Shown one piece after another: positions 19,512-20,945 of a stretch of 64,000 nt of DNA. Position numbers and translations under genes: made by a program. Numbering within the stretch: position 1 is the first letter of the stretch; every line of letters starts with the position of its first letter. The DNA comes from Acidimicrobiales bacterium (GTDB taxonomy: Bacteria > Actinomycetota > Acidimicrobiia > Acidimicrobiales > Aldehydirespiratoraceae): contig JAQWLJ010000047.1 of NCBI GenBank assembly GCA_029247365.1, positions 1 to 64,000 on the forward strand, in the 5' to 3' direction. Below the pieces are notes generated by a model. The model made no database searches, was not told the origin of the DNA, and saw nothing but the letters and a program-made list of their open reading frames with translations.

Positions 19512-20945
19512 ATGGAATCTAGTGAGATCCGATCCCAACTTGATGAGCGGCTGGCGCTGATCCAAGCCGACCTCGTCCAGATGATGGCGACCGTTGCCAC
19601 CCGGGTCGGCGAGGTCACGTCAGCGATGCTCGAAGGCGATATCGAGACCGCCGACCGATTGATCGCCGGCGATGACGAGGTCGACCTTCTGTCGCTGCGC
19701 GTCGAAGAGGGCTGCGTCGAGACGCTGATACGCGAGCAACCAGTGGCATCCGACTTGCGCTTCGTGGTCGCCGCAATCCATATGAACAGCGATATCGAGC
19801 GTTCGGGTGATCTCGTCGCCAACATCGCCAAGGCGGTAGGCCGGCTGCAGGGCGCTCACCCGGACCATCATGTGCGCGATCTGGTCGCCCGCATGTCGTC
19901 GGAGGCACAGACCCTTCTTCGTCGAGCGTCGGAGTCGTTTGTGACCCGTGATGCCGAACTCGCGGCATCGATCGACGAGCTTGACGATCTCCTCGATGAC
20001 CTCCATTACCGATACATCCAGCACGTCATTGCCGACGCTCGACGCGGCGATCTCGACCCACAGCAGTCGCTGCAGCTTGCGCTCGTCGGCCGGTTCTACG
20101 AACGGATCGGCGACCACGCCGAGAACATTGGAGAACGAGTTCGCTACATCGTCGATGGCTGGCTGCCCGAGGCCCAGGCGGCCGAGCGGGCACAGGCCCG
20201 CTTAGAAGCCGGCGAGCTGAAGCCGCACCGCGGCCTCGCCGTCATCGACTCGATTGCCGAGGAGCGTCGCATCGATGCCATCCGGCGTGACTTCGTGGCC
20301 AATGTCTCCCACGAACTCAAGACGCCCGTTGGCGCAATGAGCCTGCTGGCCGAGACCCTCGTCGGCGAGACGGAGCCCGCCGACCGTGATCGGCTGAGCG
20401 ACATGCTGCAGCGCGAGGCCAAGCGGGTGGAGGACATCATCGATGACCTGCTCGAGCTCACCCGTCTCGAAGAGGGCGAAAGCGAGACAGAAAAGATCAA
20501 GGTCTCGAAGATCGTCGCCAAGTCGGTCGACAAAGTCCGCACCTTTGCCGACGGTATGCATGTGCAGCTCGTGGTCACCGGCGACTCAGGCGAGGAGAAA
20601 GTCAAGGTCGATCGGCGAGCTGTTGTACGAGCGCTCACGAACCTGATCGACAATGCTGTGCGCTACTCCGAGGCTGACCAGCAGGTCACGGTTGCGGTCG
20701 AGGTGCTCGAGCACGTCGTGGCAATAAGCATCAAGGACGACGGTGTCGGTATCCCTCGTGCTGAACTCGAGCGCGTGTTTGAACGGTTCTACCGCGTCGA
20801 TCGGGCCCGGAGTCGCGAGACCGGTGGTACCGGCCTCGGCCTAGCGATCGTTCGGCACGTCGCGGAAAACCATGGCGGGCGAGTGCTTGTCGAATCGAAG
20901 CCGGGCGATGGTTCGACGTTCACCATCGAGCTGCCGCGACTCTAG
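19512..20945 (+). CDS. PhoU-histidine kinase fusion protein (PhoU domain + HisKA + HATPase_c)
   Basis: N-terminal PhoU repeats [16 protein letters not shown] and [21 protein letters not shown]; HK boxes [54 protein letters not shown]. Confidence 0.92.
   Translation: [477 protein letters not shown]

Follow-up and report, generated by a model that had tools for sequence, protein, structure and literature searches.

The stretch of DNA analysed here (the window, 64,000 nucleotides from an Acidimicrobiales bacterium) carries a pstSCAB phosphate uptake operon, in which pstB is followed by a gene encoding PhoU and a histidine kinase in a single polypeptide, and then by a response regulator gene. 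The genes, promoter element and protein parts discussed in the following are:

about 13146..13817, minus strand: second PhoU-like gene (PhoU2) 3' of nptA, without PxAxDLR (profile and locus comparison)
13864..15000, minus strand: nptA-like Na+/Pi symporter gene, divergent (NF037997 above cut-off)
15063..15106, no strand assigned: PHO-box-like 11-bp direct repeats (GTTCGCCAACT GTTTACCTGGA ... GTTCATCCGAG) in the nptA/pstS divergent promoter
15139..16275, plus strand: pstS (PBP_like_2; TIGR02136 below cut-off)
16266..17717, plus strand: pstC with an N-terminal extension of ~190 aa (TIGR02138 above cut-off, residues 198-479)
17717..18634, plus strand: pstA (TIGR00974 above cut-off)
18652..19497, plus strand: pstB (TIGR00972, 379 bits, cut-off 343)
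19512..20945, plus strand: phoU-histidine kinase fusion gene, 477 aa (domain searches; kept in relatives)
19512..20156, plus strand: PhoU module, residues 1-215 (Pfam, TIGR02135; six helices in the AlphaFold2 model, pLDDT mostly >90)
19740..19760, plus strand: PxAxDLR motif, P77-R83, corresponding to P81, A83, D85, L86 and R87 of E. coli PhoU (alignment)
20091..20117, plus strand: alpha6 motif RxxERxxDH, R194-H202, proposed Pi/metal site (alignment; proposal from PMC12301784)
20157..20282, plus strand: linker, made of the PhoU C-terminal tail and a remnant of the last PAS strand (alignment, AlphaFold2)
20283..20477, plus strand: HisKA/DHp domain with the phospho-acceptor H267 in VSHELKTP (Pfam, alignment)
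20610..20939, plus strand: HATPase_c/CA domain (Pfam, alignment)
20956..21654, plus strand: OmpR/PhoB-type response regulator (REC and Trans_reg_C), putatively cognate (Pfam domains)

The fusion gene is one open reading frame from an ATG start, free of internal stops, with a GGAGG approximately 10 nt 5' of the ATG. The stop of pstB (19497) lies just before it and the ATG of the response regulator (20956) about 10 bp after it. Pfam searches detected two PhoU repeats (E 2.2e-34), HisKA (residues 258-322, E 1.5e-16) and HATPase_c (residues 367-476, E 2.2e-31). Residues 8-216 scored 163.4 bits against the full-length PhoU model TIGR02135 (cut-off 130.25) and thus represent a complete PhoU; however, the family is characterised as a stand-alone cytosolic protein acting in trans, whereas here PhoU forms the N-terminal half of a kinase. 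The remainder is a class I histidine kinase with H-, N- and G-boxes in order and both HisKA and HATPase_c above cut-off. Its core shares descent with PhoR/PnpS/SenX3, since it groups with the PhoR cores of neighbouring operons on the tree, and the best core matches of the last 240 residues are PnpS and PhoR. The full-length PhoR/PnpS/SenX3 models are not reached (TIGR02966, 236 of 334 bits; NF046044, 254 of 400; NF008235, 149 of 390), because the sensor part is missing. The N-terminal transmembrane (TM) segment and PAS domain of these kinases, which the separate homologues possess, are absent from the fusion: Pfam gave no PAS match, and the best 19-residue hydropathy value was 1.22, compared to 2.1-3.3 for the TM segments of separate PhoR proteins. 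In an AlphaFold2 model built from a 97-row alignment (mean pLDDT 82.5, pTM 0.51), the six-helix PhoU is confident and the kinase core mostly so, while linker residues 235-249 stay below a pLDDT of 50; hence, the model leaves the relative placement of the PhoU and kinase halves unfixed.

These results agree with the preliminary description of this DNA, which had proposed a one-polypeptide PhoU-histidine kinase devoid of TM segment and PAS domain, located between pstB (18652) and a PhoB-like regulator (the OmpR-type gene at 20956). Its short linker leading straight into the kinase core is indeed short, but it still contains the final PAS strand, the rest of that domain being lost. A separate membrane-bound PhoR, named there as evidence that would speak against this reading, was not found among the HisKA kinases of the 98%-complete home genome, where each of the four others has two TM segments and lacks a PhoR/SenX3-like core. 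As a correction, the window also holds the second, NptA-linked PhoU-like gene (about 13146-13817, minus strand), which is the only other PhoU in the home genome.

The promoter upstream of pstS shows direct repeats in the 11-bp register that characterises Pho regulons. The pattern GTTYRYC-N4-GTTYRYC has a single match in the 64 kb, at 15063-15080, with 0.03 expected, and by eye this match extends into more 11-bp repeats. In many relatives, a similar PHO box heads the pst operon or the pstB-fusion unit at the corresponding position. PHO box and operon fit an autoregulated Pho operon, in which the regulator encoded at 20956 would bind the repeats. This regulator gene adjoins the fusion in every fusion locus examined; its product scores 214 bits against the PhoB equivalog model TIGR02154 and stays below the cut-off of 296.

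Approximately 27 non-identical homologous fusions were found, all of them within the class of the window's organism, with 45-92% identity. Within its own family, five genera supply 17 further genomes with an intact fusion; identity over PhoU and the first part of the kinase is 64-94%. A collection of named genomes contributed nine full-length fusions, several already among the family genomes, from MAGs titled Acidimicrobiales, Acidimicrobiia, Acidimicrobiaceae or Actinomycetota/Actinomycetes; nine more fusion genomes from three more families came from a 398-genome sample of the order, and two more from other families of the class. When 399 genomes were sampled evenly across the phylum, only the window's own fusion turned up, and plasmids searched at E 1e-60 gave none. 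Long open frames around PhoU elsewhere in the phylum were, in those fetched, overlaps of open frames in GC-rich DNA and not fusions. As far as sampled within the phylum, the fusion is rare, old and confined to its class. Our literature search of papers found none naming a PhoU-kinase single polypeptide. Among the matches listed in sequence and fold searches, no solved chain covers PhoU and kinase; in the PDB fold search (50 of 713 matches listed), kinase chains and models aligned over about the kinase core. PhoU and PhoR are already known; by uniting them in one polypeptide, the PhoU kinase probably adds a new version of PhoU-PhoR/SenX3 signalling.

In sister genera and in other families, phoU and phoR are separate genes, in the order pstB-phoU-phoR-response regulator, and the separate PhoR proteins have, ahead of the kinase core, a TM segment and a PAS domain of weak score. 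Such operons (e.g. L059, L063) share gene order and domains with the window's operon, and their PhoU is 45-51% identical to the fused one, but they consist of two genes with TM and PAS in PhoR, while the fusion is one gene without either. Alignment of the junction with a separate PhoU ending in GWLPE and with the PhoR of locus L057 shows the change: the phoU stop and approximately 165 codons for TM and PAS are gone, and the last PAS strand is retained as linker. The alignment thus indicates that a PhoR/SenX3-type kinase lost its anchor and PAS domain and was attached to the C-terminal end of PhoU, the product of the gene just upstream. The PhoR of G316 (L057), with PAS and no clear TM segment, resembles an intermediate state. 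In the best concatenated tree, the fusion must have arisen twice, once in the main clade and once in L151 and L179, with near-identical end points. A single origin for all fusions was also considered; an AU test leans against it without rejecting it (p = 0.07). Two origins are regarded as probable. One genome of genus g207, which otherwise has the fusion, carries a separate-gene pstSCAB-phoU-phoR-response regulator operon of another lineage (G328, L163, 2349-9200), which we read as a replacement or horizontal transfer.

The preliminary description had also taken the architecture to suggest direct reading of PstSCAB, and this claim is not supported in its general form. Beyond weak generic ABC matches, pstC and pstA are missing from six fusion genomes (G317, G319, G325, G330, G333 and G334; draft assemblies, 86-98% complete), which represent three independent Pst losses on the tree. 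In five of them pstB is missing as well; the exception is an orphan but intact pstB in G333 (L160, 8772-9540, minus strand; 75% identity), located beside nptA-phoU2. All six fusions are full-length with all kinase motifs kept, and all six lie directly divergent from nptA. A PHO box is found directly ahead of the fusion in the Pst-less loci L158 and L162, and slightly degenerate copies in L159-L161. Because these genomes retain the fusion beside nptA, contact with Pst is not an indispensable input. What stands of the earlier view is the hard-wired link, since PhoU stands where the sensor module would be and no separate PhoR was found among the HisKA kinases; Pst as the general input does not stand. 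As a separate observation, in G331 and G332 (loci L071, L074, L191 and L192) pstB adjoins the fusion and has its own PHO box, and pstC/pstA of a more distant type (~31% identity) lie on another contig.

It is disputed whether PhoU is a relay of the Pst state or itself the phosphate sensor. As a whole, we favour, with moderate confidence, the explanation that the fusion is a soluble phosphate-starvation sensor kinase with PhoU as built-in input domain, which would sense Pi without obligatory Pst. The PhoU module, loaded with Pi and/or metal via the alpha6 motif RxxERxxDH, would hold the attached DHp/CA core, in cis, in its phosphatase state. A drop in cytoplasmic Pi would turn the core into a kinase that phosphorylates the adjacent OmpR-type regulator (20956); the regulator would act on the PHO boxes between nptA and pst, in the divergent promoter from which the fusion gene would also be expressed. 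In Pst-containing species, including the window's, the PhoU module probably touches PstB via PxAxDLR; such a contact would restrain uptake or supply a flux signal, and would be separable from Pi switching. It should be dispensable for a useful kinase, because Pst was lost three times and the kinase kept. The sequences themselves show the architecture and its conservation, the junction, the Pst losses, the distribution of the motifs and the PHO box, from which we deduce, together with published work, that Pi is the input, that switching occurs in cis, that the phosphoryl group passes to the neighbouring regulator and that PstB is contacted. The alpha6 motif, put forward as Pi-binding site of PhoU (PMC12301784), is present in 30 of the 30 aligned fusions, the Pst-less ones included, and comprises the counterpart of E. 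coli R201.

The proposal can be compared with work on separate PhoU proteins. In M. smegmatis, the TM part of SenX3 is dispensable and Pst is not needed for sensing, the PAS domain of SenX3 is essential for Pi sensing, and purified PhoU1 with Pi moves SenX3 toward phosphatase activity (all PMC12301784). The fusion is in line with these data: it has no anchor, it can do without Pst, and PhoU is bound covalently instead of docking to a PAS domain; as the PAS domain is essential there, the covalent link would have to take over its role in the fusion. PhoU contacts the PAS domain of PhoR (E. coli PhoU A147/R148; PMC4423584), and in E. coli/Salmonella also its kinase domain (PMC9239213). This PAS requirement counts against the favoured explanation, as do the low-confidence linker of the model and the draft state of the Pst-less genomes. 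Two further findings also do so: in Caulobacter, depletion of PhoU left the response to cytoplasmic Pi unaffected (PMC11208175), and the retention of PxAxDLR in Pst-containing species argues that Pst coupling matters there.

As in the mycobacterial SenX3-RegX3 system with PhoU1/PhoU2 (PhoY), PhoU would control a HisKA-type kinase and an OmpR-type regulator, but in mycobacteria a separate PhoU acts on the PAS domain of a membrane-anchored kinase, whereas in the fusion PhoU is covalently attached and TM and PAS are gone. The PhoU-PhoR-PhoB-PstSCAB system of E. coli/Salmonella shares pst-phoU, a PhoR-type core, a PhoB-type regulator and the same operon logic; however, its PhoR has TM and PAS, PhoU bridges PstB and the PAS domain in trans, and the contact residues A147/R148 correspond to V144/T145 in the fusion. 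Bacteriophytochromes and FixL-type soluble kinases likewise have a cytosolic N-terminal sensor on a DHp-CA core, but that sensor is PAS/GAF and not an all-helical PhoU pair.

A stronger form of the favoured explanation holds that the fusion is a self-contained cytosolic Pi-sensing kinase, in which PhoU would be the Pi receptor and switch the attached kinase without PstSCAB, PAS, anchor or partner, and that the three Pst-less lineages use it with the Na+/Pi symporter alone. We find this plausible, with our doubts slightly outweighing our belief. Either way, in this lineage the PhoU-kinase link became covalent, the PAS dock and anchor disappeared, and three later losses of Pst left the kinase in place. 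Since the protein is single and soluble, it can be purified and tested on its own for Pi, metal and nucleotide inputs, so that this natural fusion in uncultured actinobacteria makes bacterial phosphate sensing testable.

The main alternative places the true sensor of the window's species in Pst: the PhoU module would read the transport state of PstSCAB via PstB and pass it directly to the fused kinase. It would agree with the operon order pstSCAB-phoUHK-response regulator and with the binding of PstB by E. coli PhoU (PMC4423584). Furthermore, PxAxDLR is kept in 23 of 24 fusions from Pst-containing genomes, lost in all six Pst-less ones (scan-corrected permutation over three lineages, p = 0.007) and absent from the window's PhoU2. 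The correlation is not perfect, however, because one genome (G348, L150) contains Pst and lacks the motif, and a sign test with only three independent pairs, too few for significance, gives p = 0.25. Moreover, six genomes devoid of PstCA still have the fusion and its regulator, in some loci with a PHO box, and the M. smegmatis data argue against Pst as the sensor (PMC12301784). We consider this alternative rather unlikely. A contact with Pst as such is nevertheless probable in Pst-containing species, the window's included, since PxAxDLR is conserved almost only together with Pst. The comparison of genomes with and without Pst picks this motif as a candidate PstB-contact site, distinct from the proposed Pi-binding alpha6 motif, and a role as Pst (PstB) contact site is our probable working hypothesis. 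As a side note, the first PhoU repeat in L053-L055 (G330, G333, G334; g208/g209) also lacks the ExxxD metal-type motif (GRSAD, ERSAA), a loss that is not shared by the other Pst-less lineages.

That the input comes from NptA or its PhoU2, the latter forming a heteromeric PhoU complex with the fusion, seems improbable. It is true that nptA is divergent from the window's operon and beside the fusion in six of six Pst-less loci, and that in L158-L161, as in the window, nptA is followed by PhoU2, but no nptA occurs within the locus stretches examined for L068, L069, L071, L072 and L074, and PhoU2 was not seen to be gained or lost together with the fusion. Chance, errors of sequencing or assembly, and a read-through without function across the two adjacent genes of the ancestral arrangement can all be dismissed, because the same architecture, joined at the same point and with unchanged catalytic motifs, recurs in these approximately 27 non-identical frames from independent assemblies that range from 92% (G340/L039, L075) down to 45% identity.

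Some further features of the surrounding genes may be mentioned. The nptA-phoU2 pair (13146-15000, minus strand), divergent from pst in the window, lies in L187 just past the fusion and response regulator genes on the opposite strand. The extension of PstC (16266-16850, plus strand) precedes the PstC domain, which covers residues 198-479 of 483. Upstream of phoU2/nptA, a second pstS-like gene (11885-13000, plus strand) encodes a protein ~67% identical to the PstS of the operon, and a second pstS near the operon also occurs in the relatives L068, L069, L072 and L073.
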